Position numbers and translations under genes: made by a program. The notes below the pieces were generated by a model that was not told the DNA's origin, ran no database searches, and saw nothing but the letters and a program-made list of their open reading frames with translations. Below, piece by piece: positions 23,041-53,606 of a stretch of 64,000 bases of DNA (position 1 is the stretch's first letter; the number at the start of each line of letters is the position of its first letter). Origin of the DNA: Marinilabilia rubra (GTDB taxonomy: Bacteria; Bacteroidota; Bacteroidia; Bacteroidales; Marinilabiliaceae); assembly GCF_003121985.1 (NCBI RefSeq), contig NZ_QEWP01000010.1, positions 124,001 through 188,000 of the forward strand, in the 5' to 3' direction.

Positions 23041-23045
23041 ACAAA

Positions 23046-24533
23046 ATGGCTATGTTTTTTAAAAAAATACCTCTATTCATGCTATTATTGGTGATGTTTT
23101 CTTCTTGCCAATCAATAGATAAAGCTAAAAAGCAACAAGACGGTCGCCCCAATTTCCTGTTTGTAATGGTTGATGATCAGCCTTATGATGCTCTTGGTAT
23201 CTACGAGCGCTACCCTTTTCTTGAAACTCCTAACATGGATCGACTGGCAAAAGAAGGTGCCAACTTTACAAACTTTTTTGTTACACAGTCAATTTGTTCT
23301 CCTTCCAGAGCAAGTTTCTTAACTGGAACTTATCCTCATATTCATGGTGTGAATCAAAACAACCCTCATGTTGATCCGAATTGGGAAGCTTATCCACCTT
23401 ACACTTCCATTCTTCAGGAACAGGGTTATGAAACGGCCATGGTGGGGAAGATTCATATGGCCCACTATCGTGGAGAAAAGCATGTTCGCCCTGGATTTGA
23501 TTATTGGTTTAGTTTTATTGGCCAGGGAGAATATTTTAATCCTGAAGTAAATGAAAATGGGAAAGAGTATCAGGAGGAAGGATACATGACAGATATTCTT
23601 ACAGATAAAGCAATTGATTGGCTTACCGAAAAAAGAAGTGAGAACAAACCCTTTAATCTTTGCCTTTGGCATAAGGCTGTGCATGAACCTCATGCACCTG
23701 CCCCCCGTCACTCAGATCTTTACGAAAATACGGAGCTTCCTGAACCTCCTTTCGATATGCATAAGGAGAATTTTGCCGGAAAGCCTGAATGGCAGCGTGT
23801 CAAAGCTTATGACTCTAAATGGAAAGACTATCAGCCCGTGGATTCTCTTCCCATGAAAAGCTGGCCCATCAAAGAGCAAAAATTTAAAAATCTGTTAAAA
23901 ACATTAATTTCGGTTGATGAATCGTTAGGGAAGGTATTAGATACTCTTGAAGAAATGGGGGAGCTTGATAATACTGTTGTTATTTTCACCAGTGATAACG
24001 GGTATTTCATGGGCGAACATACCTATTGGGATAAGCGTATTGCGTACGAAAGTTCCATGCGGATACCTATGTTAATAAGGTATCCTGAATTGATCAAACC
24101 GGAAAGTGAAGTTACGGAGTTGTGTTTAAACATTGATATGGCCCCAACTCTTCTTGATTTATCAAATAATACAATACCAGGTTATATGCAGGGTGAATCT
24201 ATGGTTCCCTTGCTTGATGAGGAAAAAGATGTGGACTGGCGTGATGCTGTTATGTTTGAATATTATGTGGATGATGCCTACCCTTATGCTGGCCCAGACA
24301 TGTTGGCTGTAAGAACGGATACCTTAAAATTAGTGGATAATTTTTTGGAAGATGATATCGATGAACTGTATGATTTGAAAAATGATCCCGGGGAGATGAA
24401 TAATTTAATTTATGAATCTAAATACGAGGATGTTGAAAAAAGATTGCGAAGTGAATTGGAAATTTTAAAGGAGAAATACAAGTATAATCCTGATAGAGAT
24501 TGGTGGCTTAGACAGGTGATCAATGAAAAATAA
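23046..24533 (+). CDS. S1 family sulfatase, lipoprotein
   Basis: A 495-residue arylsulfatase-type enzyme. The sulfatase signature is SICSPSRASFLTG with Cys84 as the predicted formylglycine precursor, which needs an anSME-type maturase not in this window. Other catalytic elements are MVDDQ (metal Asp), GKIH (Lys-His), HKAVHEPHAP and TSDNGYFMGEH. I start it at ATG 23046 rather than the upstream frame start at 23010, which overlaps the symporter; the shorter form gives a clean lipoprotein signal (MFFKKIPLFMLLLVMFSSC), with the lipobox Cys at residue 23. It should sit in the periplasm or at the surface. It follows the symporter by 5 bases and ends before a strong hairpin. The sulfate ester removed is not known. 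SYWD-type residues near the C terminus do not identify a subfamily I can name. Confidence 0.9.
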   Translation: MAMFFKKIPLFMLLLVMFSSCQSIDKAKKQQDGRPNFLFVMVDDQPYDALGIYERYPFLETPNMDRLAKEGANFTNFFVTQSICSPSRASFLTGTYPHIHGVNQNNPHVDPNWEAYPPYTSILQEQGYETAMVGKIHMAHYRGEKHVRPGFDYWFSFIGQGEYFNPEVNENGKEYQEEGYMTDILTDKAIDWLTEKRSENKPFNLCLWHKAVHEPHAPAPRHSDLYENTELPEPPFDMHKENFAGKPEWQRVKAYDSKWKDYQPVDSLPMKSWPIKEQKFKNLLKTLISVDESLGKVLDTLEEMGELDNTVVIFTSDNGYFMGEHTYWDKRIAYESSMRIPMLIRYPELIKPESEVTELCLNIDMAPTLLDLSNNTIPGYMQGESMVPLLDEEKDVDWRDAVMFEYYVDDAYPYAGPDMLAVRTDTLKLVDNFLEDDIDELYDLKNDPGEMNNLIYESKYEDVEKRLRSELEILKEKYKYNPDRDWWLRQVINEK

Positions 24534-24605: not shown

Positions 24606-24655
24606 GATTAAGTTGTAAACGGGTGATGGGGCAATTTCTTTTAAAAACTTTAATT

Positions 24656-30307: not shown

Positions 30308-31573
30308 ATGAAATTAATGTACATTTTGACAGGAGCCTTATTGTTATTTGGAGGGGGGTTCGCTCTTTATGCTTTATTAAATGGAAAGAATCCTGATCAC
30401 CTGAATCAGTTACTTGATGATTATAATTATGTGATAGGGACTCAGACGGTTGGTTCAAAATACCAGTTTACCGATGAAACCATGCTGGTAGAAACTGCAA
30501 AAGAGATTAAAAATATGGGCTCCAACCTTTTGAAATTCTCAATGAATCCCAGGTATTGTACCGAGAACTATGGACTGCCTAAAAATGATTCCATTAAATC
30601 TTTATTAGACCTTGCCACGATGGAACCTTCCGTTAAAAAAGTTTTGGATATGGATTTTAAATATTATCATATCTGGGTTTATGGTTTTTCTCAGTATACC
30701 GAAGAGCCTGAAGGTGAAAAGAGAGATACCAATCAGATAAAATTTATTGGTGGGTATCCTGATGAGTATGCCAATGCTCTTTATCAGGAATTGTATGATT
30801 TAACTTCTTATTTCCTTAAAAAGTATAACAATAGTGGAAAGATTTTTTATCTGGGACATTGGGAAGGGGACTGGCATTTAAGATGGCACTTTGACAGAAC
30901 AAAACCCGTAGATATTCAGACTCTTCAAGGGATGAAGAAGTGGGAATTAGTTCGGCAAAAAGCCATTGATGATGCTAAAAGAGATATTTCTCATGAGAAT
31001 GTTGAGATCTATAATTATATCGAAGTTAATTTGGTCAAAATTGGCATGGAAGAGGGGGCTGCAACTGTTACCAATTCTGTTCTGGAAGTAGTAAACCCTG
31101 ATTACGTGTCTTATTCTGCTTATGATACTACCAATCCCTACAAGTCGGAGGAGGCTCTTACTGAAGGATTGCATGAAGGATTGGATTACATTGAATCATT
31201 TTTACAACCCAAAAGCGGTTTGCCTGAAGGAAAACGTGTGTGGATTGGTGAATATGGAAGTCCTACGGTACATTATTCAGAGGAAGAGCAAAATGAAAGA
31301 TCTGTGTGGAGCATCAAAGCTGGCTTGAAATGGGGAAGTCCTTTTATTTTGTATTGGGAGTTGTATAATAATGAAATTGATAAGGAAACCGGGGAGCAGG
31401 TAGGTTACTGGATGATTGATGATAGCGGTGAAAAACAAAAAATCTGGTATACTTATCAGCAATTTTATGAGGAAGCAAGATCTTTCGTTAATCGTTACTA
31501 TCTGGATCATGGGGATGTGCCTGATTTTGATACATTCCGAGATAAGGCTCTTGAATTTAATGCGTTAAATTAA
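30308..31573 (+). CDS. P1: secreted/anchored protein of unrecognised four-member family, predicted glycoside hydrolase
   Basis: A 421-residue protein and the first of four paralogues here (with P2, P3, P4). I do not recognise the family. An N-terminal hydrophobic segment (residues ~3-22) is a signal anchor or signal peptide. The shared core starts at GTQTVGSKYQFTDETMLVETA. Conserved acidic motifs in order: HWEGDW (Glu186, Asp188), YIEVN (Glu239), DYVSYSAYD, IGEYG (Glu315), and YWELYNNE (Glu351, Glu356). Alternating strands and helices ending in these residues resemble a TIM barrel of clan GH-A, with the acid/base after strand 4 and the nucleophile after strand 7 (inference). P1 is closest to P4 in its core opening. 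I start it at ATG 30308; the upstream GTG at 30257 would add a non-signal segment. A sulfatase follows P2. Confidence 0.72.
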   Translation: MKLMYILTGALLLFGGGFALYALLNGKNPDHLNQLLDDYNYVIGTQTVGSKYQFTDETMLVETAKEIKNMGSNLLKFSMNPRYCTENYGLPKNDSIKSLLDLATMEPSVKKVLDMDFKYYHIWVYGFSQYTEEPEGEKRDTNQIKFIGGYPDEYANALYQELYDLTSYFLKKYNNSGKIFYLGHWEGDWHLRWHFDRTKPVDIQTLQGMKKWELVRQKAIDDAKRDISHENVEIYNYIEVNLVKIGMEEGAATVTNSVLEVVNPDYVSYSAYDTTNPYKSEEALTEGLHEGLDYIESFLQPKSGLPEGKRVWIGEYGSPTVHYSEEEQNERSVWSIKAGLKWGSPFILYWELYNNEIDKETGEQVGYWMIDDSGEKQKIWYTYQQFYEEARSFVNRYYLDHGDVPDFDTFRDKALEFNALN

Positions 31574-31643
31574 TTGGGCTTTTATTATAGTTTTTTTTTA
31601 TGCATCAGTTAATTAAGGTTCTTAGACATTAAAAATTTCAATC

Positions 31644-34073
31644 ATGAAATTTAAATATACTTTTTTTGTATTTCTTCTTTTTTTATTCGTTACTGTCTCC
31701 GGCACTATCAGGGGTCAGTCTATTGATTTTTCTCAGGCCAGTTTTACGATAGCTGATGGCAATTGGTCTGATCCGAATATATGGAACGACGGACAGGTGC
31801 CAAATGGCAATACTGATGTTGTGATACCATCAGGGAGCAATGTTTATGTTGATGTTGAGGGAAGTGTGTCAGGTGAAATTGTTTCGCTTTGCAAAAACCT
31901 GATGGTTCAAAAATCAGCCGTTTTGCAACTGGGCCACAATACCGTTGGCTTTTTGAAAGCACTTGAAATAAGCGGCAGTATTATTTGTGATGGAACCATT
32001 TCTCAGGGGAGACAAATACCCTCAACCAGCGGTGATGGCATTATCTACCAGAATAATGCCCGTATATATATGACCTTAAGCGACGCGACAACATATATTT
32101 CTGGAAAAGGGTATTTTCACCCAGGTGGCATTTATATATCATCTGCAGTAGGCGAGAAAAACCTGACTGTTAATCATTATAATGTAGTAGTCAATAATAA
32201 CTTTATTGTAGATTCCGAAAATCGGATCTCCGTTTTAATTGATCATTTTTCGTTTGTAAACATAGGGCAAACCCTTGCGATATCAGGTGGTATTTATCAG
32301 GAGAGTTCAGCTCAGGTTATGAGTGACTTGCAGATTGATGGTATCGTGTCAGCCAATGATGTCAGTCTTTTTACCCGAAATGATAATTCCGGAGAAGGTA
32401 GTTCTATTGTTGTAGGATATGAAGGCAGCCTTTGGGTTAAAAGTTCAATTAATCAAGGGGCAGCCTATCAGAGTGGTAGTTCGGGGTTTAGTCTTGAAGT
32501 CCAGTCTGGAGGTTTATTCAGATGTGGATCCGGTGTGAGAAGTCCGGAAACGGTAGCTGCTGATGATGCAAATTTTTCTTTCTCCAATCAGGGGGAGATA
32601 CGGCCTCATTATTCTCAAACCCTGACCTCTGTTACCCAGATCCAGACAATTATTGATCAGTATAAACCCACTCAGAATAATAATTTAGATAGGCTGAATG
32701 ATATTTTTGGTGCTTCCCATATTGACGGGCGATATCATTTTACCGATAGACCCTATCTGCTTGAAGGACTGGATTACTTTAGAGAATTTGGGTCCACTGC
32801 CATAAAGACAAGTCTAAGCGCTATTAATGGAGCGATGAATGCCAATTATCATTTTAATCATACCTGGCCTGCTTTTGATCAATTGGTAGATGTTGCCAAC
32901 CATAAGATGATGGATTCGTTATTTAGCAGAAATCACATTAAAACCCATGCTTTCTGGGCAACAACGGGGCGTGTTGATAAAGGATTCTGGAAAGATGGAC
33001 CGGATTTCAATCATGAAATTTTTCTGGATGAAGAAAATCAATTCTATGAACTGACTAAATATCTGCTTCAAGAATACGGGAATACAGATAAAACTTTTAT
33101 TTATCAGAATTGGGAGGGCGACTGGATGCTTAGGGGGCAAGGCGTTTCATGGGAAAATAATCCTTCTTTGATTCCCGATGATGTTGACTGGGTAACTGCA
33201 GGTATGGCCCGTTACTTTAGAGCAAGGCAAAGAGGGACAGAGCGTGCCAGAAAGGAGTTTCCAAATGCAACAGCTAAAATTTTGAATGCAATAGAATTAA
33301 ATAAACTCTGGTATAAAACGCCCTCAGGTGCGTTTTCTATGATGGAATCAAATATCCCTGCAGTTGCTTCTGATGTTATTCCTTATTGTCGTCTCGATCT
33401 TTCTTCCTGGTCTTCTTATGATGGACTTATTAAAACTGCAGAAAAACCATTTCCTACATTTTTGTGGAATGGACTGGAGATGATTAATTACTTCACTGTT
33501 TCGACGGAACAAATTCAAAATGGTATTCCTGTTCAAATAGGGGAGATTGGGTTTAATGAGAATACCGGCTATTTTGGAGAATATCAAATCAGATCGTTCT
33601 ATGATCGTGTGGGCGGAGTGGCTTTAGGTTTGGGGGTTCAGCAAGTTTTCTTATGGAATCTTTATTGTGTTCTTGGTGATGCAGGCGGACTTCAAAGAGG
33701 CGTTGAGTATGATACAGTTGTATTATATGATGCTCTAAAAGGAAAATGGCTGTTAGAGCCGGATGGAACCTGGGGATGGGCTGCCGGATTTTTTATGGAA
33801 CAATTTGCCAAAGAATCTACTTCCACTGGGATTGAAAATTTAAGAGAAGATGTAAAGCTTGTTCCATCGGTGACTGATGAAGCCAGTTTAAGCATAAAAA
33901 TGCCTTATCTAAAGGCAAATATCCGGATGTATGATATGAACGGACGAATGGTTACCAACAGGGCATACAGTGCTGGTGAAAATATTTTTATTGGTTCCTT
34001 ATTGCCTGGTTACTATGTGATATGTGTTGACACACCTGAAGGAATGGTGTGTTTGAAATTTGCAAAGAAATAA
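31644..34073 (+). CDS. P2: family member with N-terminal beta domain and type IX tail
   Basis: An 809-residue secreted protein. Residues 1-25 are a signal peptide (GTIRGQ). Residues ~33-340 form a repetitive beta-rich region that opens DGNWSDPNIWNDGQVPNGNT, the W-x2-P/W-x5-P pattern of G8-like domains, then runs of strand-turn units like a parallel beta helix. The P-family core occupies residues ~360-735: GASHIDGRYHFTD, NWEGDW (Glu491, Asp493), IELN (Glu551), DLSSWSSYD, and IGEIG (Glu634). Unlike P1, P3 and P4, the late W-E motif is W-N (Asn672). The final ~75 residues (IRMYDMNGRMV, GYYVICVDT, ending KFAKK) look like a type IX secretion sorting domain, so P2 is probably exported to the surface. 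It starts 70 bases after P1. Confidence 0.72.
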   Translation: MKFKYTFFVFLLFLFVTVSGTIRGQSIDFSQASFTIADGNWSDPNIWNDGQVPNGNTDVVIPSGSNVYVDVEGSVSGEIVSLCKNLMVQKSAVLQLGHNTVGFLKALEISGSIICDGTISQGRQIPSTSGDGIIYQNNARIYMTLSDATTYISGKGYFHPGGIYISSAVGEKNLTVNHYNVVVNNNFIVDSENRISVLIDHFSFVNIGQTLAISGGIYQESSAQVMSDLQIDGIVSANDVSLFTRNDNSGEGSSIVVGYEGSLWVKSSINQGAAYQSGSSGFSLEVQSGGLFRCGSGVRSPETVAADDANFSFSNQGEIRPHYSQTLTSVTQIQTIIDQYKPTQNNNLDRLNDIFGASHIDGRYHFTDRPYLLEGLDYFREFGSTAIKTSLSAINGAMNANYHFNHTWPAFDQLVDVANHKMMDSLFSRNHIKTHAFWATTGRVDKGFWKDGPDFNHEIFLDEENQFYELTKYLLQEYGNTDKTFIYQNWEGDWMLRGQGVSWENNPSLIPDDVDWVTAGMARYFRARQRGTERARKEFPNATAKILNAIELNKLWYKTPSGAFSMMESNIPAVASDVIPYCRLDLSSWSSYDGLIKTAEKPFPTFLWNGLEMINYFTVSTEQIQNGIPVQIGEIGFNENTGYFGEYQIRSFYDRVGGVALGLGVQQVFLWNLYCVLGDAGGLQRGVEYDTVVLYDALKGKWLLEPDGTWGWAAGFFMEQFAKESTSTGIENLREDVKLVPSVTDEASLSIKMPYLKANIRMYDMNGRMVTNRAYSAGENIFIGSLLPGYYVICVDTPEGMVCLKFAKK

Positions 34074-34285
34074 TCAAGTGTTCCTGGATTTTTATTGTCA
34101 TTCAACCATGTAATGACTTAATTTTAAAAGAACAAGGTAGTATTTTCTTAGGTGGTTTTTCTTCCGTTTTGCGATAGGTTGAGGTGCAGGTGGAAGCGTG
34201 CTAATTTCCAGGTTTCAACTACAGTCTGTTGAAATTTCTGGGTCATTATGATTCAATATTTATTACGACAAAATCGGTTTTTAGT

Positions 34286-36118
34286 ATGAAAAGAATAGGT
34301 GTTGTTTTAGTTTTTTTGCTGGCTTACTATGGCTCCTTTGTGGCCTCGCAGGAACAAGCAGGTCCCAATGTGGTTTTTATCATATCTGATCAACACAAAC
34401 TGGATGCATTGGGTTGTTATGGTGATGAAATGGCCATTACGCCAAATATTGACAAATTAGCTGAAGAAGGGGTCAGACTTACCAATTGTTATACCCCCGC
34501 TCCGGTTTGTGCTCCCGCTAGAGCTGCAATGATGACCGGGATGTATCCTGCAGCAAATGGTGCGCCTTATCACAAGGCTCCTGTTGTTGGAAATGATGGC
34601 AAAATTAAGGATGTCGGAACAGGAAGACTTCGGGAAACAGGCTATTATGAAGAGTTAACCACTCTGGCTCAGGTATTCCGGCAAAATGGATATGCGACTG
34701 GTTCGCCAGGTAAAATGCATACGCATGGTGAGCTACAGACGGATGTGGATCCTGCAATGCCAGAAGGGAATGATATGGGTTTTGATGAGGTCAGCGTTCG
34801 TTATTATACGCATTTCCCGGGTGGCCATTATGAGGATGAAGTAGGAACTGATACTTATCAGCGATACCGGGTTTTTGAGAAATATAATTCTTATCGCAAA
34901 GCGGGATATTATTTAAATACTGTTTACAAACCTACTCTTGTCAAAAAAGATGAAGAAAATTTTGACATGGTGGTAACTAAAAAAGCTGTTGAATTTATTG
35001 ATGACAGAGCCAATGATAATAAGAATTTTTTCCTGCATGTCGGACTTGAAAAGCCTCATCCTCCTTTTACCACAACTAAAAAATATCTGGATATGTACGA
35101 TCCGGATGACTTTGAATTGCCCGACAATGCGAATGCCTGGTATGGAGTAGGAAAATATCCCTGGTTGCCTGACTGGATTCACAACGGATTACCTCAAAAT
35201 CCACAGGAGGCAAAAAATGCCATGGCTTCTTACTATGCTTGTGTCACTGAAGTTGACGATATGGTTGGTCGGATTGTGAACAGGCTGAAGGAGAATGGTT
35301 TATATGATAATACAGTGATTATTTATACTACCGATCATGGTGAACACCTTTTCGAACATGGTCTTAGGGGCAAACATTGTATGCTCGAAGATGCTGTAAA
35401 TATTCCATTTATTATTTCATTTCCTGAAATGATGCCTCAAAATGAGGTCAATGAATCATTGGTGTCTTTAATTGATATGATGCCCACTTTCTGTGATTTG
35501 ATGGGATGGGATGTTCCAGAAACTGCACAGGGAAAATCTGTGCTGCCATTTTTGAAAAATGGATATGACGAAAAAGACCGAAAAATATTTGCTGAATTCC
35601 GTGGAGGGAACTACAATGCTTTCCCGGAAATGAAGAATCTGCCCTCCCGTATGTTGAGAACCGGGGATTTGAAATTTATCTACACTCATGGCATGGCAAA
35701 CCAATTATATCATGTGGTAGAAGATCCCGACGAAGAAAACAATCTGGCGTTTGAAATGAGTCACTATGAAAAAATGCGTGACCTCTGTTTTCAGACCATT
35801 GCAGGTTGGGAGCCTCAGGAATATCATTTGATGAAAACCTCTCTCACAAACAAAACCATAAACTGGGATTCATATGACAATGTGGAAGAATATGTGGTAT
35901 ATTATTCTGAAACTGCAGATCCTGAGTCAGCTGTTGTTTACCAGGAGGGCATCACCGAGACTTTTTTGACTCTGTCCAGAGATGGATATTACTGGGTAAT
36001 GGCCGTTCCCGGGTTTTCCCGAACAGCAAAGAGAACAGGAAATATCCCGGTATTCAGGGAGGAGTATACTTTGAAATTACCAGTTTCCGGAAAGATTTGT
36101 GTTCAACGGAATATTTAA
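34286..36118 (+). CDS. S1 family sulfatase with C-terminal beta domain
   Basis: A 610-residue sulfatase. The signature PVCAPARAAMMTG has Cys75 as predicted formylglycine. Other conserved parts are SDQHKLDALGCYG, GKMHTHGE, EKPHPPF, TTDHGEHLFEHG and LRGKHCM. I start it at ATG 34286, giving a signal peptide (FLLAYYGSFVASQ), not at 34229, which adds an unrelated segment. The C-terminal ~90 residues after the sulfatase fold (KTINWDSYDNVEEYVVYYSE, GYYWVMAV) look like a fibronectin-type-III-like sandwich, perhaps used to hold the glycan; this is unusual for S1 sulfatases. It sits between P2 and SusC. The substrate is unknown. Confidence 0.88.
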   Translation: MKRIGVVLVFLLAYYGSFVASQEQAGPNVVFIISDQHKLDALGCYGDEMAITPNIDKLAEEGVRLTNCYTPAPVCAPARAAMMTGMYPAANGAPYHKAPVVGNDGKIKDVGTGRLRETGYYEELTTLAQVFRQNGYATGSPGKMHTHGELQTDVDPAMPEGNDMGFDEVSVRYYTHFPGGHYEDEVGTDTYQRYRVFEKYNSYRKAGYYLNTVYKPTLVKKDEENFDMVVTKKAVEFIDDRANDNKNFFLHVGLEKPHPPFTTTKKYLDMYDPDDFELPDNANAWYGVGKYPWLPDWIHNGLPQNPQEAKNAMASYYACVTEVDDMVGRIVNRLKENGLYDNTVIIYTTDHGEHLFEHGLRGKHCMLEDAVNIPFIISFPEMMPQNEVNESLVSLIDMMPTFCDLMGWDVPETAQGKSVLPFLKNGYDEKDRKIFAEFRGGNYNAFPEMKNLPSRMLRTGDLKFIYTHGMANQLYHVVEDPDEENNLAFEMSHYEKMRDLCFQTIAGWEPQEYHLMKTSLTNKTINWDSYDNVEEYVVYYSETADPESAVVYQEGITETFLTLSRDGYYWVMAVPGFSRTAKRTGNIPVFREEYTLKLPVSGKICVQRNI

Positions 36119-36167
36119 CTGTCTTTTCAACTGGTTATAGCGAAAGGTAAATTAAGAATGTAGATCA

Positions 36168-36265
36168 AGCTTTATTATTCAGAACTAAAATAAAGCTGCT
36201 AAAATGAAATCAGGAGAGGGAACCTTACAAAAGCAAAAAAAGGAAATCGCGGTAACGATTTCCTT
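36168..36265 (+). promoter_or_regulatory. Two hairpins in the SusC leader
   Basis: AGCTTTATT (36168-36176) pairs with AATAAAGCT (36189-36197), and AAGGAAATCG (36240-36249) pairs perfectly with CGATTTCCTT (36256-36265) around a 6-base loop. Neither is followed by Ts on the plus strand; the second is followed by Ts on the minus strand. They sit between the sulfatase stop and the SusC start and may be leader structures. Confidence 0.35.
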
Positions 36266-36308
36266 AAAAAAATTGTTTTTAATTTTTTACATTAAACTTT
36301 TCAAATTT

Positions 36309-39300
36309 ATGAAAAAAATCAATTTTTATCGTGAGTGTGGGTATCACATTCTGTTTAAAACAATTCGGATTGTGAGTATAACGTTGTTTTTACTCCTCAC
36401 AACTAATCTTCAAACCTGGGCGAACAGTGGGAATTCACAAACGGTTGCTCAGCAGCAAAAAGAGGTTTCAGGAACAGTAACGGATGATTATGGAGACCCG
36501 TTACCTGGAGTCACAGTTGTTTTAAAAGGAACAACAGTCGGCACGATTACCAATGCAGAAGGGGTATATTCACTTAGCAATGTACCTGACGATGCTACTT
36601 TGGTTTTCTCTTTTATTGGTATGGAAACTCAGGAAGTACAGGTGGGGGATCAAACGGAGATTAGTATAAAAATGGAGAGTGGGGATATTAGTCTCGAAGA
36701 AGTAGTCGCAGTGGGCTATGGGGTCAGAAAAAAAGAAACACTTTCAGGATCCATTACCAATATCAGAACTGATGATATCCAGAAAAGTAAATCTGAAAAC
36801 CTTATCAACATGCTTCAGGGGAAAGTTTCAGGTCTTCTCGTGAGACAGAAGAGCGGGGCACCCGGGGATTTCAGCAATATGATCAGTGTCCGTGGATTTG
36901 GAGAACCATTATACATTATTGATGGTGTACCCAGAGACGGTAGTTCCTATTTTGCTCAGTTAAATTCAAATGATATAGAAAGTATTTCTGTATTGAAAGA
37001 TGCTGCAGCATCTATTTATGGAATGAATGCCGCAAATGGAGTTATTATTGTAACGACCAAGCGCGGTCATGTTGGAAAACCTTCTGTTTCGTATTCAGGC
37101 TTTTACAGTGCTAAGGAGCCAACCGGATTGCCCCAGACAGTGGATGCTTATTCTTACAGGGTTTTGAGAAATGAAATGGATGTAAATGCGGGATTAAATC
37201 CTACTTTTAATGAAGAAACATTAGAGAAATACAGATTAGGAGAACCCGGATACACAGATACTGATTGGCTTGGATTAACTATGAAAGATGCTACTTTTAG
37301 TCATAGTCATAACCTGTCAGTAAGCGGTGGAACTGAAAAAACGAAGTACTTTACCAGCCTGGAGTATAACAATGACAACGGGCTGCTAAGGAGTGACGTT
37401 CAGGAGTATGAGAGAATTAATTTCAGAGGGGGAATTAAGACAAAAATCACAGAGGATTTAACCCTTGATTTCAACACCTCCCTCAGGCATACTTATACCA
37501 AGGGGCCTCAAACCGATTACATCTGGGCTTACAAATTTATGGTTGTCAACGACAGGGGTATAGGTGCTTATACATTAGATAACCCTGATCATTTGACTGC
37601 TCCACCACCAAACGGTGTTAATCCGGTGGGAAGAACATCTGAAGAACGTAGTGGTTATAACAGAGTTTCTGAATTGAGAAATTATAACACTTTAAAACTC
37701 ATTTATGAGTTGCCTTTTGTAAAAGGATTGAAAATTACTGCAAATACTGCCTTTGATAGTAGGCATACAGATCACAGGAATCTGCAAAAAGAAGTTGATC
37801 TGTATGATTATCGTACTGATGCCTATATTAAAACTGACCGTAAAAACCAATTCCAGAAGTGGAATAATCAACGTTATCGGTTTTATGTAATGGGCCAGAT
37901 TGATTACAACCGGAAATTTGGTCGTCATCAAATAGGGGCTTCAACAATTGCGGAGTATCGAAGCATTGAAGATGGTTCGTTATATGGCAGCCGTTTGTAT
38001 GAAGATGTTTATACCAATGACGTAATCAATCAGGGAACGCCCACAACTGCAACAAATTCAGGGGATCGGAGTTATCAGAAATTTGCTGCTTATATCGGCA
38101 GGATAAACTATGATTTTGCAGGTAAATATCTTTTTGAAGGAGTTGTAAGGTATGATGGTTCCTATCGTTATGCTCCGGAAAATCGATGGGCTTTGTTTCC
38201 TTCTGCCAGTATTGGCTGGAGAATATCAGAAGAACCGTTTTTTGCCGATAATCTTCCCTTTGTAAATAATTTCAAACTTCGCTTTTCTTACGGGGAGAGT
38301 GGTTATGATGCTGGTCAACCGTTCAGATATGTACCTGCCTACTCGAGTTCACTCGGGTATGTGTTATCGCCAAATTCTCTGACGGTGGGATATGCTCCTC
38401 CATCAGGACTGATTGACAATAAATTATCATGGGTGACAACAGTTACTTCAAATATTGGTATTGATTTTTCTTTGTGGAAGGGGCTGTTAGGAGGTACTTT
38501 TGATGCTTTCCAGAGAGAGGATGACGGACTGTTGGGTACACGCATTCAGTCAGTTCCTAACACTTTTGGTGCAACCTTCCCGCAAGAGAACATCAATTCG
38601 GCAAGAACCCGGGGATTGGACATGGAAATTACCCATCGTAACAAAATAGGTAAGGATTTTTCATATTCAATCGCTGTTAATGCCACATTCTCTCGTTATA
38701 TGGATCGGCATATTGAAAGAGCTGAGTTTAATGATTCCTGGGACAGATGGCAGAATGGAAGAGAAAACCGATATAATAATTTTGTGTGGTTGTTTGAGAC
38801 AGACGGAAGGTTTGAGTCTGTGGAAGATGCGGAAACAGCTGTGCTGCATACACCCGCAAATCATTTGGGGAATTCAAAGTTATTGCCCGGAACTTATAAG
38901 ATGAAGGATCTTGATGGTGATGGTATCATTACTGCAAAGGATAAAAGCAGTGAGAATTGGAATTATGGTGGTTCAAGGAGTAGTATCAATAATTTAAATC
39001 CCCCGCTGCAGTTTGGTTCTTCAATAAGTGCAGCGTATAAGAATTTTGATATAAATGTGCTTCTACAGGGAGCTTCGTTGTATTCAAAAAGATTTCATGC
39101 AGATGATATTTACGGATATGGTCGTTATCCCTCAGTTCATGAACAGTATCTTGATCGATGGCACACTGCTGATCCGTCTGCCGATCCTTATGACCCGTCA
39201 ACGGAATGGGTAGAGGGTTTTTATGGACCTCTTCGCAAGAATTTTGCAGGAACCAAAGATTTGGCTCCATCTGATTTCTGGTTTGTACCGGCAACTTATC

Positions 39301-39524
39301 TGAGATTAAAGAATTTGGAGGTTGGTTATAATTTGCCTGAAAATGTTTTAGATCGGTTGGGTTTTGAGCAGTTTCGCGTCTTCTTTAACGGATCCAACCT
39401 TGCAACACTGACGAACGATAGACTAAATGAAATTGACCCTGAGAAATGGGAAGGTCCATACTCCGCAGGTCTTACATATCCTCTGTTGAGGACATATAGT
39501 TTTGGTATCAACTTAAAATTCTAA
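36309..39524 (+). CDS. susC: SusC/RagA-type TonB-dependent glycan porin
   Basis: A 1071-residue outer-membrane importer that pairs with the SusD lipoprotein. After a long signal peptide (ending near LQTWAN) comes the carboxypeptidase-regulatory-like domain (EVSGTVTDDYGDPLPGVTVV, GVYSLSNVPDDATLVFSFIG), then the TonB box and plug (LEEVVAVGYGVRKKETLSGS, VRGFGEPLYIIDGVPRDG, LKDAAASIYGMNAANGVIIV), all SusC hallmarks, and the barrel ending in an aromatic residue (INLKF). I start it at ATG 36309, because the frame upstream to 36204 carries a hairpin and a non-signal segment. SusD starts 5 bases after its stop. The pair should bind and import oligosaccharides released by surface enzymes. Confidence 0.94.
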   Translation: MKKINFYRECGYHILFKTIRIVSITLFLLLTTNLQTWANSGNSQTVAQQQKEVSGTVTDDYGDPLPGVTVVLKGTTVGTITNAEGVYSLSNVPDDATLVFSFIGMETQEVQVGDQTEISIKMESGDISLEEVVAVGYGVRKKETLSGSITNIRTDDIQKSKSENLINMLQGKVSGLLVRQKSGAPGDFSNMISVRGFGEPLYIIDGVPRDGSSYFAQLNSNDIESISVLKDAAASIYGMNAANGVIIVTTKRGHVGKPSVSYSGFYSAKEPTGLPQTVDAYSYRVLRNEMDVNAGLNPTFNEETLEKYRLGEPGYTDTDWLGLTMKDATFSHSHNLSVSGGTEKTKYFTSLEYNNDNGLLRSDVQEYERINFRGGIKTKITEDLTLDFNTSLRHTYTKGPQTDYIWAYKFMVVNDRGIGAYTLDNPDHLTAPPPNGVNPVGRTSEERSGYNRVSELRNYNTLKLIYELPFVKGLKITANTAFDSRHTDHRNLQKEVDLYDYRTDAYIKTDRKNQFQKWNNQRYRFYVMGQIDYNRKFGRHQIGASTIAEYRSIEDGSLYGSRLYEDVYTNDVINQGTPTTATNSGDRSYQKFAAYIGRINYDFAGKYLFEGVVRYDGSYRYAPENRWALFPSASIGWRISEEPFFADNLPFVNNFKLRFSYGESGYDAGQPFRYVPAYSSSLGYVLSPNSLTVGYAPPSGLIDNKLSWVTTVTSNIGIDFSLWKGLLGGTFDAFQREDDGLLGTRIQSVPNTFGATFPQENINSARTRGLDMEITHRNKIGKDFSYSIAVNATFSRYMDRHIERAEFNDSWDRWQNGRENRYNNFVWLFETDGRFESVEDAETAVLHTPANHLGNSKLLPGTYKMKDLDGDGIITAKDKSSENWNYGGSRSSINNLNPPLQFGSSISAAYKNFDINVLLQGASLYSKRFHADDIYGYGRYPSVHEQYLDRWHTADPSADPYDPSTEWVEGFYGPLRKNFAGTKDLAPSDFWFVPATYLRLKNLEVGYNLPENVLDRLGFEQFRVFFNGSNLATLTNDRLNEIDPEKWEGPYSAGLTYPLLRTYSFGINLKF

Positions 39525-39529
39525 TAGCA

Positions 39530-41503
39530 ATGAATATATTAAAAAAATATTTTGTAATACTCGGTATCTTATTGGCAGTATTTGCTTGTAACGATACATT
39601 GGAGTTAGAGCCCCTTGATAAAGTATCAGGAAAAGTACTTTTCGAAACGGAGGAGGGTATTAAAACTGTAGTGGCTGATATGTACAAACGTATTCCGGTT
39701 GAGAATTTCTGGTACAGGCCAACTGGGAATTTTGCTGGTTTTAACAACAAAAATGCTGAAAGTGCAGGGGCTATGATTGCTACTGATCACTTTACTGACG
39801 ATGCTTGTTTAAGTCACGGTTCAGGATGGAGTCTTACAGCAAATTATTGGCCTTATGGCAATATAAGGTATGCGAATATTTTTCTGGAGACCGTAGAGGA
39901 ATCAAAAGGCAACTTGAGTGAGCCCGTGTATAACCGACTAATTAGTGAAGGCCATTTTTTCCGTGCTTACATTTATTTTGGTATGGCAAAAAGGTATGGT
40001 GGAGTTCCTTTAATTGATCGATTGCTGGATGATGAATATCAGCCGGGAAGCGATAATGAAAACCTTAATATCCCAAGAAGTACTGAAAAAGAAACTTTTG
40101 ATTTTATTCTGGCCGATCTTGATGAGGCGGTGAAGTATCTTCCGGAATCTACTCCGCCAGATAAAGAGGGGAAATTCAGGGCTACCAAGTGGGCAGCCTA
40201 TGGTCTAATGTCCCGCGTAGCCCTTTTTGCTGCATCTACAGGTAAATATAACTCCAATGCTGATGTAGCCGGAGAAGCATTCGACAAAAAGCTTGCTTTT
40301 GGTATCACCCCTGCCGAAGCGGATGAATACTACCAAAAATGTATTAGCGCCAGTGAAGCAATCATTGATAATTCCGGCAAATCATTATTTCAGCCAAATC
40401 CGGGTAGTCCCGCTGAAGCAGCATTTAACTTTTTGGGTTTATTTCACCAGGACATTACAGATGGGAATGAAATAATTTTCAAGCAAGGTTTTATTCCGGA
40501 AGCTGCAGCTGAGACACAGGGCCACAGGTACGATGGTTTGAATACACCACATCAGCTGAACCAGGGATACCATGTTGATGGGCGTTATAGTGTAAGTCTG
40601 GATATTGTGGATGTTTTTGAAGATTATTCCGATGATGGATCCGGTAATAGTGTAAAGGTGAAAACAAGAACAGACGGAAATGAAAGCTATACTTTCTCTG
40701 ACATTTCTGACGGTTTTGATGCTGATTTGCCTTTTATTAAATACGATAGCCCTCTGGATGCTTTTGCAGACAAAGATGCCCGTTTACATGCCAGTGTTAT
40801 GTTGCCATATTCCAACTGGCGAAATACCGAAATCGTAGTACAGGGAGGGCTTATTACACCAACCGGAACACAGCAGATTTTTGTTAATCAAAGTGCTCAG
40901 GGACTCGATGGTAATACCTATTATGTGTACGGTGCGGCTGGGAATAGCTTGTTTTCAGGATTCTATGGCTTGAATTTCTGGCAGGATGGAAACTATTACA
41001 GCACTGGTTTTGGTGTTAAAAAATATCTTGACATTAAAGATGTTGACCGGGGAAGAAATTCTGACACTGACTGGATTGATATCCGTTTAGCTGAGATCTA
41101 TTTAAACTATGCAGAGGCTGTAATTGAAAGCGGAAGTGGAGATGCCGCAAAAGCGCGGAATTTGCTTAATGCATTAAGACAAAGGGCCGGACATACTGAT
41201 AATATTCCCCTTACTCTGGAAAATGTTCTGAAAGAAAGACGTGTGGAACTTGCTTTTGAGGGCCACAGATATTGGGATTTGATGAGAAGGAGAGATGTTC
41301 ATGAACTTTTTCAGAATTACAAAAGAGAAGCTTTGGTGCCGGTTCTTGACCTTCGGGAAAATCCGCCTAAGTACATTTTGGTCAGGACAAATCAATATCA
41401 CGATGAAAGAGCTGGTGGAAGAACTGTTTTTGATCATGAGTACTATCGTCCTATTCCGGGTAGAAATACCAACAACCTGATCGATAACCCAAACTATAAT
41501 TAA
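39530..41503 (+). CDS. susD: SusD/RagB-type glycan-binding lipoprotein
   Basis: A 657-residue surface lipoprotein. The lipobox is VFAC (Cys near residue 20). Helical repeats of the SusD fold appear as NRLISEGHFFRAYIYFGMAK near residues 140-160 (the RAYxY motif of SusD tetratricopeptide-like helices), GGVPLIDR, TKWAAYGLMSRVALFAA, and a C-terminal DIRLAEIYLNYAEAVIESG then LRQRAGHTD, VLKERRVELAFEGHRYWDLM, a very strong SusD signature. It is larger than typical SusD (~550 residues), with extra residues in the middle. It starts 5 bases after susC and a DUF3823-like lipoprotein follows, so the three form one operon. The ligand is unknown. Confidence 0.95.
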   Translation: MNILKKYFVILGILLAVFACNDTLELEPLDKVSGKVLFETEEGIKTVVADMYKRIPVENFWYRPTGNFAGFNNKNAESAGAMIATDHFTDDACLSHGSGWSLTANYWPYGNIRYANIFLETVEESKGNLSEPVYNRLISEGHFFRAYIYFGMAKRYGGVPLIDRLLDDEYQPGSDNENLNIPRSTEKETFDFILADLDEAVKYLPESTPPDKEGKFRATKWAAYGLMSRVALFAASTGKYNSNADVAGEAFDKKLAFGITPAEADEYYQKCISASEAIIDNSGKSLFQPNPGSPAEAAFNFLGLFHQDITDGNEIIFKQGFIPEAAAETQGHRYDGLNTPHQLNQGYHVDGRYSVSLDIVDVFEDYSDDGSGNSVKVKTRTDGNESYTFSDISDGFDADLPFIKYDSPLDAFADKDARLHASVMLPYSNWRNTEIVVQGGLITPTGTQQIFVNQSAQGLDGNTYYVYGAAGNSLFSGFYGLNFWQDGNYYSTGFGVKKYLDIKDVDRGRNSDTDWIDIRLAEIYLNYAEAVIESGSGDAAKARNLLNALRQRAGHTDNIPLTLENVLKERRVELAFEGHRYWDLMRRRDVHELFQNYKREALVPVLDLRENPPKYILVRTNQYHDERAGGRTVFDHEYYRPIPGRNTNNLIDNPNYN

Positions 41504-41520
41504 TAACATTAAAATACTGA

Positions 41521-42258
41521 ATGATGAAAAGAATTATATATGTTAACATAGTCATTTCGTGTTTATTACTTACTCTGTTTTCTTGTGAGCCTGACAATTA
41601 TGATGGCCCCACTTCTCAGATACATGGTAGTATTAAAGATGCCTCAACAGGAGAACTTGTTGAAACCGAATTAATAAACGGAAATGTGATTCGAACCTAC
41701 GAACAGGGGTTTGAGGTTGAACAACGAAGAAACTGGTTCGTGAAGAATTCCGGTGAATATCGTAACAACTTAGTTTTTGCCGGCGAATACAGGTATGAAA
41801 TGTTCGAATGTAATTTCTATCCTATTGAAGGTATGTTTACCCTTAGTGGAGGAGAGAATAATATTGATTTTGAAGTCATACCTTACATTCGAATTGTAAA
41901 TCCTTCCATAGAGAAAGTTGGAGATGAAATTATTGCAACATTTTCTCTGGAGGCCGGAGGACCTGAAGTAGCCCTCAAAGAGATCAGGTTGTTTGCATTC
42001 TCTGATGTTTATGTTGGAAACTTCACACGATTTGATCTGAAAAGTTCAAATGACAGGATACAGTTTAATCCTGCCGTGGCAGTAGATAATTCAACCTATA
42101 CATTAACAATTGATTTGTCTGCAAATGAAAATTTCTTCCCCTACGCTAAGAATTATTACTTTAGAATTGGGGCGTTGGCAGCAGTCAACGGTGTTGTAAA
42201 TTCAGGTGCTGTGAAATTTAATTATGCACCCTATGAAGTTATAACATTAAATCAATAA
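41521..42258 (+). CDS. DUF3823-like surface lipoprotein
   Basis: A 245-residue lipoprotein (LLLTLFSC lipobox, Cys near residue 22). Residues ~33-120 form a carboxypeptidase-regulatory-like sandwich (IHGSIKDASTGELVETELI, NFYPIEG), and residues ~125-240 a second beta domain, as in DUF3823 proteins encoded after SusD in many loci. Such proteins are taken to be extra glycan-binding surface proteins next to the SusCD complex; this is context-based. Two adjacent ATGs (41521 and 41524) can serve as start. It follows susD by 17 bases and is followed by a strong terminator, so it ends the susCD operon. Confidence 0.82.
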   Translation: MMKRIIYVNIVISCLLLTLFSCEPDNYDGPTSQIHGSIKDASTGELVETELINGNVIRTYEQGFEVEQRRNWFVKNSGEYRNNLVFAGEYRYEMFECNFYPIEGMFTLSGGENNIDFEVIPYIRIVNPSIEKVGDEIIATFSLEAGGPEVALKEIRLFAFSDVYVGNFTRFDLKSSNDRIQFNPAVAVDNSTYTLTIDLSANENFFPYAKNYYFRIGALAAVNGVVNSGAVKFNYAPYEVITLNQ

Positions 42259-42285
42259 TGTTTTAAAACTCTAACTATTCTTTAA

Positions 42286-42313
42286 ACACCCTGCCTGATA
42301 TCGGGCAGGGTGT
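42286..42313 (+). terminator. GC-rich terminator-like hairpin ending the susCD operon
   Basis: ACACCCTGCC (42286-42295) pairs perfectly with GGCAGGGTGT (42304-42313), and three further inner pairs (one G-U) close on a two-base loop. It is followed by A/T-rich sequence with short T runs. Confidence 0.75.
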
Positions 42314-42336
42314 GAAGAATAGTATTTTGATTTTGA

Positions 42337-42519
42337 GCGGATGAGGATTTTTTAGCCTGGTTTATTAATACATCTATCTTAATATTTTTAGAAGCAGATG
42401 TTTTTTATAGTCCTGATATAAAGCGCTTTTTAAAGTGGAATGATCTTGAGTTAGTGTGCTTGAACTGCAGGGAAATAAAAATTTATGGTGAACTCTTTTG
42501 TCCAAAATGTGGAGGTTAG
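42337..42519 (+). pseudogene. Possible zinc-ribbon remnant without a usual start codon
   Basis: An open frame after a TGA at 42334-42336 runs 60 codons to TAG at 42517. Its end reads LVCLNCREIKIYGELFCPKC then GG: two CxxC pairs 13 residues apart, a zinc-ribbon layout. I see no ATG, GTG or TTG early in frame, so it is likely the relic of a longer protein or a small gene with a rare start. It lies between the terminator and P3. Confidence 0.4.
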
Positions 42520-42567
42520 AAAGTGCTGGATCTTCCAATTGTAATTTTCACCATTGAATAAAATAAT

Positions 42568-43824
42568 ATGAAATCACTTATCGTTTTTTTATTAATAGTT
42601 TCATTTGTTTCGTTAGCATGGGGGCAAGACCTTCAGCAAAAAAAATTGTCTGACGAATGCATTACTGAAATTATTGAAAAGCACCGGCCTCTGAAAGGAT
42701 ATAGAGTTCCTGCAGATATTGAACACAGATTGGGAGCGACCCATGTGGGAGGAAAATATTATTTCACCGATGAACCATACATTATTGAAGGAGCCAGGAA
42801 GTTATCGGAAATGGGTTATGGGGTAATAAAATTGTGGCTGACCAAAAATGAGCGGCAATATCCATATAATTCTGACTGGGACCTTTCGAAGGATGTTACG
42901 CTGAAAGAACTTGCTCAGCACCCTTATTATCAAACATGTTTTGATATGCCTTTTTCTACAATTGCACTAAGTGTTGGCGGAGCTGGATTAAGGACAACCC
43001 CGGAAAGTGTTGCCAGAGAAGAAAAGCAGATATACGAATTAACAAAATATCTTCTCAAAAAATATAAAGACAGAGAAGTTAACTTTATTCTGCACAACTG
43101 GGAGGGTGATTGGCTGCTTAGAGGAGGAACGGGAAGCCATGCACGCTGGTCCAGGAATCCTGGTCAACCGATTGATGCTGTAGATGGCCAGAGACATACT
43201 GTCGCTGTTCCTGCAGATTCTATGCTTCGTGTCAATGCCATGTCTAAATGGTTTGAAGCGCGTCAAAAAGGTGTTAGCAGGGCCAGAGCAGAAAATCCGA
43301 ACAGTAAATGCAAGGTTTACCATGCCATTGAAGCCAATAAGGTATTGGATAGCATGAAGGGTATTCCCGGAATTGCGAGTTATGTTCTCCCAAATGTTGA
43401 AGTGGATATGGTTTCCTGGTCCAGTTATGACGGGATGGATCCTGATGGTACCGATTTGTTTCGGGGGATTGAATATTTAAGAAATCAAATGAAACCCACA
43501 CCATATATGAACGGAGACAGGGTTGTATTTCTCGGTGAAATCGGCATCCCTGAACAACGTTACGAAGGTCTTACAGAAAAAGATGCTGTAATTGAACGTT
43601 GGGATACCTATATCGGGGTTTGCCTGGCGCTCGATGTTCCCTATATTATTCAGTGGGAGTTGTATTGTAATGAACCTAAAAATGAAAAATTCAGAAGGGT
43701 TCTGGAGACACGCAAAACAGATGAGATGAGGGGTTTTTGGCTGATACGTCCGGATGGGACTCAGAGTTTTGTTGGGCAGTATTTTGAGAAACTTTTGAAA
43801 AATTCCGGGGAAAAGATTGAGTGA
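42568..43824 (+). CDS. P3: secreted member of the unrecognised P family
   Basis: A 418-residue protein with a signal peptide (residues 1-19, ending AWGQ). It is the compact form of the family, with no added domain. Core landmarks: GATHVGGKYYFTDEPYIIEGA, HNWEGDW (Glu179, Asp181), AIEAN (Glu255), DMVSWSSYDGMD, LGEIG (Glu324), and QWELYCNE (Glu364, Glu369), all conserved with P1 and P4 in order. The HNWEGDWLLRGG region has two Arg-rich flanks (HARWSRNPGQP). P3 and P2 share W-SSYDG, so they are nearer to each other than to P1 and P4. It is probably periplasmic, since no lipobox or type IX tail is seen. P4 starts 56 bases after its stop, suggesting one transcript. Confidence 0.72.
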   Translation: MKSLIVFLLIVSFVSLAWGQDLQQKKLSDECITEIIEKHRPLKGYRVPADIEHRLGATHVGGKYYFTDEPYIIEGARKLSEMGYGVIKLWLTKNERQYPYNSDWDLSKDVTLKELAQHPYYQTCFDMPFSTIALSVGGAGLRTTPESVAREEKQIYELTKYLLKKYKDREVNFILHNWEGDWLLRGGTGSHARWSRNPGQPIDAVDGQRHTVAVPADSMLRVNAMSKWFEARQKGVSRARAENPNSKCKVYHAIEANKVLDSMKGIPGIASYVLPNVEVDMVSWSSYDGMDPDGTDLFRGIEYLRNQMKPTPYMNGDRVVFLGEIGIPEQRYEGLTEKDAVIERWDTYIGVCLALDVPYIIQWELYCNEPKNEKFRRVLETRKTDEMRGFWLIRPDGTQSFVGQYFEKLLKNSGEKIE

Positions 43825-43880
43825 TTCCAGTTCGCTTATGGACTTATCAACATTAGAATTTATTTTTTAAAATTTCGCTT

Positions 43881-45335
43881 ATGAAAACCATAACTAATAT
43901 ATCTATACTTATTGTTTTACTCTTGGGCTTGCTTAGCTGCGGCAATGAGAGTGACGATGATATTCCAGCTATAAATCAACCTGTAATAGATTCTTTTTCT
44001 CCTGATTCCGGTCGTGAGGGAACCCAGGTTGTTATTACCGGAAGTAATTTCAGCAATTACACGAGCAATAATACTGTTTATGTAGGTGATAAAAGCACAG
44101 TCGCTGCTTCTGCAGATTTTAATCAATTGACATTTACGATTCCGGCTGGAATTGCTCCCGGTGAATATCAAATTAAAGTAAAAGTAGATACGCTGACAGC
44201 TACCTCGTCTCAATACTTTACGGTGAAAGAGAAGGTTAATATTACAGATCCTGAGGTGTTGAATTTTAATTATTCCGCAGGAACGCAGACTATTGGGCCA
44301 ACTTATAGCTTTACACAGGAAGATATGCTGGTTGAGACAGCCAGAGCTATATTGGAAATGGGAAGCAATATATTAAAAATTTCGTTGAATACATCAAAGT
44401 ATGCTGATATAGTTCAAAACAGGCAGGCTTCTGCAGTTGAGTTGGTTAGGGATCATCCGTCCTTCAAAAAAGTTATGGATATGCCTTTTACTTATTATTT
44501 TTTCTGGGCAAATAATTCAAAGCATTGGAAGGATGGATATTCTGCGGCAGAAAGAGTTGCTGATTCGATTCAAATTGCTGATTTAACTACTTATTTATTA
44601 ACGAACTATAATGATTCCGGGAAGGAATTCTATTTGGGAAACTGGGAAGGTGACTGGATGCTCCTTGGGAGCGGAAACATAACCAGAGTACCTTCTGATG
44701 AGGAGATTCAAAGAATGATTCAGTGGTATGAATGCAGGCAAAACGCGATGGAGGAAGCTATTCGAATTACGGACCATCAAAATGTAAAGGTGTTTTCGTA
44801 TTGTGAAGTGAACAGAGTGGTTGATGCAATGGAAGGGCAGTCCAGGGTTGTCAATAAAGTGCTCCCTCATACGAATGTTGATTATGTTTCTTATTCTTCT
44901 TATGACGCTCAGAATTTGCCACAATCGGAGTATGTTGCTGTATTGGATTATATTGAGACCAAATTACCTGCGAAGCCACAAATAGAAGGAAAAAGGGTTT
45001 TTATTGGTGAAATGGGAATAAAGGCCAAGGCTTTAAATTTTTCCAAATCCCGGCATGAGGAAAGAAACCGGGAGAATATGGCAAAAGCTTTTGAATGGGG
45101 AGCTCCTTTTATTCTTTACTGGGAAATGTACAATAATGAAATTCATAATGGAATTCAACAGGGTCTGTGGTTGATTGATGATCAAAATGAAAAGTGGCCC
45201 TTGTATTACACGTTCTCGAATTTTTATGAAGATGCCAAAATCTGGGTTTCCACGCAAAAGAAAGAATTGAATCGTTTGCCCACCCGGCAAGAATATCTGA
45301 ATTGGGCTGTTCCCAGGTTTAAGAATCCTTATTAA
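43881..45335 (+). CDS. P4: lipoprotein member of the P family with IPT/TIG domain
   Basis: A 484-residue lipoprotein (lipobox LLSC, Cys near residue 20). Residues ~33-118 form an IPT/TIG immunoglobulin-like domain (PVIDSFSPDSGREGTQVVIT, then GSNFS and ISVG-like strands), common in surface glycan-binding SusE/SGBP-type proteins, so P4 may be tethered on the outer surface by a spacer. The core follows: AGTQTIGPTYSFTQEDMLVETA, NWEGDW (Glu256, Asp258), CEVN (Glu309), DYVSYSSYD, IGEMG (Glu377), and YWEMYNNE (Glu415, Glu420). The lipid anchor plus TIG plus predicted catalytic core is a rare arrangement. A terminator-like hairpin follows, so P3-P4 probably end a transcript. Confidence 0.72.
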   Translation: MKTITNISILIVLLLGLLSCGNESDDDIPAINQPVIDSFSPDSGREGTQVVITGSNFSNYTSNNTVYVGDKSTVAASADFNQLTFTIPAGIAPGEYQIKVKVDTLTATSSQYFTVKEKVNITDPEVLNFNYSAGTQTIGPTYSFTQEDMLVETARAILEMGSNILKISLNTSKYADIVQNRQASAVELVRDHPSFKKVMDMPFTYYFFWANNSKHWKDGYSAAERVADSIQIADLTTYLLTNYNDSGKEFYLGNWEGDWMLLGSGNITRVPSDEEIQRMIQWYECRQNAMEEAIRITDHQNVKVFSYCEVNRVVDAMEGQSRVVNKVLPHTNVDYVSYSSYDAQNLPQSEYVAVLDYIETKLPAKPQIEGKRVFIGEMGIKAKALNFSKSRHEERNRENMAKAFEWGAPFILYWEMYNNEIHNGIQQGLWLIDDQNEKWPLYYTFSNFYEDAKIWVSTQKKELNRLPTRQEYLNWAVPRFKNPY

Positions 45336-53566: not shown

Positions 53567-53606
53567 TTTTGAGACGCATATTTACTTTTTATTAAAATTC
53601 AAATCT

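Follow-up and report, generated by a model that had tools for sequence, protein, structure and literature searches.

A very probable retaining glycoside hydrolase family of clan GH-A, apparently unnamed, in a polysaccharide utilization locus of Marinilabilia rubra

Clan GH-A of the glycoside hydrolases (GH) comprises families in most of which an Asn directly precedes the acid/base residue. Among the enzymes closest to those described here are BlMan5B, which we take to be a beta-mannosidase of GH5_18, PslG, presumably a member of GH39, and the GH164 beta-mannosidase; the last two act on mannose-containing glycans. A further point of reference is GH195, a GH99-like family with an endo-enzyme that acts together with sulfatases on the sulfated mannan of diatoms in marine Bacteroidota (PMC13063451). 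This report deals with four homologous genes, P1 to P4, located around a SusC/SusD pair in 64,000 nucleotides of the genome of M. rubra (contig NZ_QEWP01000010.1, positions 124,001 to 188,000; "the window", with positions counted from its first letter). The proteins very probably constitute a retaining glycoside hydrolase family of clan GH-A. Judged against Pfam, NCBIfam and PDB, the family is apparently unnamed, CAZy families having been considered by their descriptions rather than by sequence.

P1 to P4 are real, homologous genes with the following positions and features (lengths in amino acids, aa):

30308..31573, + strand: P1, 421 aa; hydrophobic N-terminus, then barrel core; E186 (HWEGDW), E239-x-N241, E315 (GEYG), WELY at 350
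31644..34073, + strand: P2, 809 aa; barrel core ~350-725; C-terminal sorting tail of the type IX secretion system (T9SS); E491, E551/N553, E634
42568..43824, + strand: P3, 418 aa; signal-peptide-like N-terminus (by eye), then barrel core; E179 (NWEGDW), E255-x-N257, D280, E324 (GEIG), W363
43881..45335, + strand: P4, 484 aa; lipoprotein-like N-terminus (LLSC, by eye), TIG domain, barrel core from ~130; E256, E309-x-N311, E377

An alternative start of P1 is the GTG at 30257, and the N-terminal ~330 aa of P2 gave no family match above cut-off in Pfam or NCBIfam. Homology, already claimed in the first-pass annotation of this DNA, is borne out by BLASTP in the four of six pairs compared (all but P1-P2 and P3-P4; alignments of 351-414 columns): P1 and P4 share 40% identity (E 8e-83), P2 and P3 31% (8e-52), P1 and P3 28% (1e-35) and P2 and P4 27% (9e-20). 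The ordered set of motifs reported in that annotation is present in all four proteins, although two of the strings are mis-typed there: neither G-x-[SYT]-x-[FY]-x-F-T nor D-x-S-[WY]-S-x-Y-D occurs in any of the four, the correct forms being [GD]-x-x-Y-x-F-T and D-x-x-S-[WY]-S-x-Y-D. Invariant in the four-protein alignment are W-E-G-D-W, E-x-N, D-x-x-S-x-S-x-Y-D, G-E-x-G and a late W-x-x-Y. The string [NH]WEGDW occurs in none of the 15 other window proteins tested, WEGDW was found in one of 4000 shuffled copies, and a profile search of the 5.38-Mb genome of the organism retrieved P1 to P4 and no further member.

Searches of the core against Pfam, NCBIfam (release of June 2026) and PDB sequences of 2026 returned chance-level matches only, with single proteins as well as with profiles of 4 and 68 rows (the larger alignment contains the four window cores and sequences from 64 of 80 fetched loci, fragments and near-copies having been dropped). 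Pfam and NCBIfam cut-offs were passed only on appendages, namely the TIG domain of P4 (residues 34-113, PF01833, 1.4e-13) and the T9SS sorting tail of P2 (residues 757-809, TIGR04183, 23.6 bits against a cut-off of 23). When the 68 members were scanned singly, the best E-values were 0.0041 in NCBIfam and 0.026-0.05 in Pfam, to unrelated families each seen in 1-5 of the 68; neither PF00150 (GH5) nor PF07745 (GH53) was among the 24 families listed for any member at an E-value of 1 or better, a threshold to be read with the fact that HMMER filters remove most matches above ~0.1. The best PDB profile match, GH53 6gpa at an E-value of 0.64, is a lead only. Three haloarchaeal plasmid relatives are annotated as hypothetical proteins, a literature search on the motif matched no paper, and the titles and abstract openings among the papers listed on new GH families and on this type of locus mention no described family that fits. 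The early description of the family as unrecognized holds within the three databases searched. The family as such is well supported; it very probably belongs to a known clan, GH-A, in which it looks new, and is not categorically new.

The fold was predicted with AlphaFold2. The model of the P3 core, built from the 68-row alignment, reached a mean predicted local distance difference test score (pLDDT) of 96.5 and a predicted template modeling score (pTM) of 0.94, and its strands (21-25, 52-57, 97-102, 138-142, 215-222, 247-251, 285-291 and 326-329) follow the order of an eight-stranded barrel; the P1 core, modeled from a separate 34-row alignment (pLDDT 89.4), shows the same strand order. Both predicted structures are (beta/alpha)8 barrels as in clan GH-A. 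In Foldseek the top PDB match of the P3 model is BlMan5B (6moy, 9.4e-08) and that of P1 is a GH5_18 enzyme (7lr6, 1.6e-08), with 136 (P3) and 325 (P1) matches at an E-value of 1e-3 or better. The 50 matches listed for each model are almost all glycosidase barrels (GH5, GH39, GH10, GH53, GH26, GH164, GH1 and GH2), where some of the family labels and the assignment of all of these families to clan GH-A are our assumption; Glu-to-Ala mutants are named in the PDB titles of GH5_18 matches. The barrel of clan GH-A type suggested in the first-pass annotation is reproduced in two models.

The candidate catalytic residues were examined by conservation (114 of 117 rows, three short fragments having been dropped) and by their location in the P3 model. 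D181, N257, D280, E324 and W363 (P3 numbering) are invariant in the 114 cores, and K88, E179 and E255 are each kept in 113. E179 corresponds to model residue 145, three residues past strand 4, which is the position of the acid/base in clan GH-A; E324 is model residue 290, at the end of strand 7, the position of the nucleophile; E255 lies on strand 5 and W363 at strand 8. In the models, the Glu of WEGDW and that of GE-x-G each lie at the C-terminal end of a barrel strand, and these ends are all on one face of the barrel. The placement of E179, E324 and W363 in the predicted structure is the retaining GH-A layout except for a Trp in place of the Asn before the strand-4 Glu. An alignment of profiles with hhalign over 223 columns of GH53 sets E324 on the Glu of VVVETAYP, which we take to be the GH53 nucleophile, and W363 on the Trp of YWE. 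Conservation and the models agree with the placement of both Glu residues put forward in the first-pass annotation, so that the acid/base is very probably the WEGDW Glu after strand 4, the nucleophile very probably the GE-x-G Glu at the end of strand 7 and the strand-8 Trp very probably a sugar platform. The two codons, assigned by conservation and the AlphaFold2 model, are:

43102..43104, + strand: codon of P3 E179, proposed acid/base after strand 4
43537..43539, + strand: codon of P3 E324, proposed nucleophile at the end of strand 7

Several observations weigh against the assignment to the retaining enzymes of clan GH-A. The residue before the strand-4 Glu is Trp in 112 of the 114 cores, and the Asn-Glu (NE) pair of most families of the clan is absent (the consensus of the 68-row alignment has Asn two residues before this Glu); E179 is replaced by Gln in one haloarchaeal copy and E255 by Ser in another; template modeling scores (TM-scores) to the GH5_18 structures are modest (0.55-0.60). 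The hhalign E-values favour GH5 (0.0018) and GH53 (0.046) over GH18 (0.28) and AP_endonuc_2 (0.39), an order that speaks for the assignment, but the scores are weak, with probabilities of 15% for GH5 and 1% for GH53; the GH5 match is confined to 86 columns ahead of strand 4, and the strand-4 Glu fails to line up with the GH53 acid/base. The control sets for these comparisons held 14/15 (GH53), 25/25 (GH5), 24/25 (AP_endonuc_2) and 22/22 (GH18) loci, three fetched GH53 loci and three fetched GH18 loci having been left out. A divergent subfamily of GH5 or GH53 type, and not a separate family, would agree with these weak profile matches and with the GH5_18-type enzymes at the top of both structural lists; it is nevertheless improbable, since PF00150 and PF07745 are listed for none of the 68 members, the NE pair is missing, and neither the scan nor hhalign places the core within the GH5 or GH53 profiles. 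Somewhat doubtful, but to be taken seriously, is the explanation that the family already bears a recent CAZy number that Pfam, NCBIfam and PDB do not yet cover. Pfam lags CAZy, yet NCBIfam and PDB in their 2026 versions gave the core no match above chance and the haloarchaeal plasmid records still read hypothetical protein. The numbering of GH families has reached at least GH195 in print (PMC13063451). Among the papers listed for GH187-GH194 and GH196-GH200, those families that a title or abstract describes do not fit (GH188 a sulfoquinovosidase, GH191 a galactosaminidase, GH192-194 beta-1,2-glucanases), and GH195 is GH99-like.

The barrel could also serve another chemistry, as in sugar isomerases, epimerases or lyases, and D-allulose and D-tagatose 3-epimerases do rank 31st, 41st and 50th in the Foldseek list of P3. 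None is present among the 50 matches listed for P1, however, hhalign scores the AP_endonuc_2 barrel no better than chance, the 68-row alignment contains no invariant His, and the T9SS tail of P2 together with the N-termini suggests secreted, polymer-facing enzymes, all of which make this option very unlikely. Loci of this type often encode glycan-binding proteins of the cell surface, and P1 to P4 might be non-catalytic barrels of that kind; this is hardly credible given that two Glu residues are near-invariant across bacteria and archaea, like catalytic residues. A confident hit to a non-enzymatic family, which the first-pass annotation had named as a ground for abandoning its proposal, did not occur over the core. 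From homology, predicted fold, conservation and gene context we infer that P1 to P4 are hydrolases acting with retention of configuration. In a retaining clan GH-A enzyme of this type E179 would protonate the leaving oxygen and E324 would attack the anomeric carbon, as proposed from their position and conservation, and water would then free the glycosyl-enzyme, the configuration being retained.

The four genes form two adjacent pairs (P1 with P2 and P3 with P4) that flank SusC/SusD on either side, and the locus has the SusC/SusD pair, linked enzymes and regulator that define a polysaccharide utilization locus (SusC, SusD and the regulator having been named by eye). The other genes are:

20271..21284, + strand: GH130 mannoside phosphorylase (PF04041, 9e-52); nearest solved structure 1,2-beta-oligomannan phosphorylase 9fj8 (1.4e-60)
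21412..23040, + strand: sodium:solute symporter (PF00474)
23010..24533, + strand: sulfatase, CSPSR motif; nearest solved structure GlcNAc-6-sulfatase 5g2v
24623..28489, + strand: hybrid two-component sensor/regulator (HTCS), with relatives in type A loci (see below)
34229..36118, + strand: sulfatase, CAPAR motif
36204..39524, + strand: SusC-like TonB-dependent transporter, with relatives beside the family in other loci
39530..41503, + strand: SusD-like lipoprotein, with relatives beside the family in other loci
41521..42258, + strand: DUF3823 protein (PF12866 / PF18003), with relatives in 13/82 loci, between SusD and P3
45623..47782, + strand: sulfatase (CSPTR) fused to an alpha/beta-hydrolase esterase
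50729..53566, + strand: GH2, exo-beta-D-glucosaminidase / beta-mannosidase-like, with relatives in 14/82 loci
53523..55157, + strand: sulfatase, CGPSR motif; nearest solved structures mucin-desulfating sulfatase 7p24 and GlcNAc-6-sulfatase 5g2v

The C-x-[PA]-[STA]-R motif, the site of maturation to formylglycine, is intact in all four sulfatases. Relatives of SusC occur in 26 and of SusD in 24 of the 82 loci. Three tandem alpha/beta-hydrolase esterase domains, ~71% identical, occupy 45623-50498 of the window, the first being that fused to the sulfatase; a second GH2 gene, with mannosidase-type Ig domains, is located 23 kb upstream of P1 (4706-7288). The 1.8 kb between the HTCS gene and P1 (28490-30256) contain no open reading frame (ORF) longer than 85 aa and no convincing relative, and gave no Rfam match at gathering score.

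P1 to P4 look secreted or surface-bound and would serve one polysaccharide utilization locus. On account of the T9SS tail of P2 and of the lipoprotein-like N-terminus and TIG spacer of P4, these two are probably surface enzymes, whereas the N-termini of P1 and P3, judged by eye, make a periplasmic or membrane-anchored location probable. In the course of degradation proposed here P2 and P4 would cut the polymer outside the cell, SusC/D would bring the pieces in, the four sulfatases and the esterases would remove substituents, P1 and P3 would shorten the oligosaccharides in the periplasm, and the GH2 and GH130 enzymes would handle beta-mannosyl or glucosaminyl ends.

The term tandem paralogues, used at first for the four genes, is right as to homology and to the two adjacent pairs but not as to recent duplication. 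In a tree of the 114 cores (a quick method without bootstrap, with some long branches, and including family genes of nine loci that longest-first ORF calling had missed) P1, P2, P3 and P4 fall in four separate groups with Shimodaira-Hasegawa-like approximate likelihood ratio (SH-aLRT) values of 100, 100, 98 and 100, each holding orthologues from other organisms; this indicates that the copies are old subfamilies and not recent duplicates, probably brought or kept together in this locus. Two arrangements recur. Type A loci, found in Flavobacteriaceae and Marinilabiliaceae, run P1, a further subfamily and P2, in most cases behind an HTCS gene; in type B loci the orthologues of P3 and P4 are adjacent or one gene apart, behind SusC, SusD and DUF3823.

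Type A: L072, L074-L076, L080, L082-L084
Type B with P3 and P4: L005-L008, L010, L018, L027
Type B with P3 and without P4: L012, L014, L015, L017, L023, L051

The window holds both halves, P1 and P2 as in type A and P3 and P4 as in type B, round one SusC/D pair. Locus L009, with a SusC 79% and a SusD 83% identical to the window proteins, carries P3, P1, GH130, a symporter of the sodium:solute family (SSF), HTCS and a sulfatase, and by this gene set is also mixed in type.

The family is rare but widely spread, occurring in several bacterial phyla and in some haloarchaea. A scan of the GTDB collection (84,980 species) gave 296 candidate stretches, of which 271 encode a relative; the best 80 of the 271 were fetched and, according to record titles and tree grouping, include Bacteroidota, Verrucomicrobiota, Planctomycetota, Acidobacteriota, Armatimonadota, Kiritimatiellota and Lentisphaerota, many of them metagenome bins. 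Carriers with a species name include Carboxylicivirga mesophila, Labilibacter sediminis and Pedobacter puniceum. Among 395 genomes of the phylum and 198 of the order the only positive in each set was the organism of the window. The haloarchaeal plasmid member with Gln at the proposed acid/base (L085:8809-10770) has a protein annotated as GH99-like nearby, and two remote relatives (24-25% identity; L184 and L185) are found on contigs of a viral collection.

Clues to the substrate come from raw counts of the neighbours. Relatives of the window GH2, nearest to exo-beta-D-glucosaminidase and then to beta-mannosidase, occur in 14 of the 82 loci, those of GH130 in 6, and those of the four sulfatase genes in 9, 7, 10 and 3, where the 10 also count hits on the esterase part of the fused gene. 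At least one window sulfatase has a relative in 7/8 P2-bearing type A loci against 2/13 DUF3823-bearing type B loci, counts that rest on short stretches in which absence is not proof. Species with type A loci presumably live in the sea or on tidal flats; for many bins with type B loci the names presumably indicate a lake origin. The initial link to sulfated marine glycans agrees with type A but, on the count of 2/13, does not extend to type B, so that such glycans are not the general substrate. In sum, the observation underlying the first-pass annotation is confirmed and its interpretation is partly supported.

Other neighbours are varied. An ORF similar to L012:6052-8049, with a DUF4962 protein, a heparinase II/III-like protein and the polysaccharide lyase (PL) family PL35 chondroitinase as best solved relatives, occurs in 13 of the 82 loci; a GH9 lies between P3 and P4 in L027, with like ORFs in L006 and L018; and single cases include GH26 (L026), GH3 with PL8 (L029) and GH29 with GH95 (L011). 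Around planctomycete, verrucomicrobial and other members the neighbours are mixed, the commonest Pfam family being GH10 (3/90), in scans of 72 and 90 chosen neighbours for which the 25 commonest families were listed. A cluster of 22 neighbour ORFs was rejected as a single unknown family, as single linkage had joined three families bridged by fusions (a PL35-like lyase, a SASA esterase and a 600-aa family). Next to P3 orthologues there is a second unnamed family, its members ~600 aa long (L014:13211-15013, with like ORFs in 13/82 loci), and L015:11146-14703 joins it to a PL35-like lyase in one ORF; those members that were scanned gave no Pfam or NCBIfam match above cut-off, and the one member searched gave no PDB sequence match.

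The affinities of GH2, GH130 and the sulfatases, taken with the locus neighbours, hint at a beta-linked heteropolysaccharide that contains uronic acid and ends in mannosyl or glucosaminyl units, with sulfate in one of the two locus types. As a tentative proposal, which may well prove wrong, a new GH-A family of several bacterial phyla and haloarchaea could open a beta-mannosyl/uronate heteropolysaccharide that is widespread, with sulfate in marine settings and without it in fresh water, and the window locus could join both types, with four non-redundant specificities for one polymer. If active, P1 to P4 would be the founding set of a new glycoside hydrolase family and would allow genes called hypothetical in three annotated records to be named. 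The existence of sulfatase-poor and sulfatase-rich loci, which may concern one glycan, would make the question of the substrate testable, and the family would point to a polysaccharide whose degradation is unmapped as far as the present literature search shows.

With regard to known systems, GH5_18 enzymes (e.g., BlMan5B and relatives solved with Man-beta-1,4-GlcNAc) resemble P1 and P3 as top structural matches of similar length but differ in sequence (10-14% identity), in the TM-scores of 0.55-0.60, in the lack of PF00150 among the 68 members and in the NE pair that the P family does not have. The GH53 endo-beta-1,4-galactanases share the GE-x-G Glu, aligned with that of VVVETAYP, and the strand-8 Trp aligned with YWE, whereas the match is weak (E 0.046, probability 1%), the acid/base is unaligned and PF07745 is unlisted. 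PslG and the GH164 beta-mannosidase are glycosidase barrels of the Foldseek lists, yet with only 8-12% identity over the structural alignments and no match in the PDB sequence search. GH195 is set apart by description only, which gives a distant relationship to GH99 and an alpha-1,3-mannan as substrate; it recalls the window locus in that an endo-enzyme acts with sulfatases on a sulfated mannan in marine Bacteroidota (PMC13063451).

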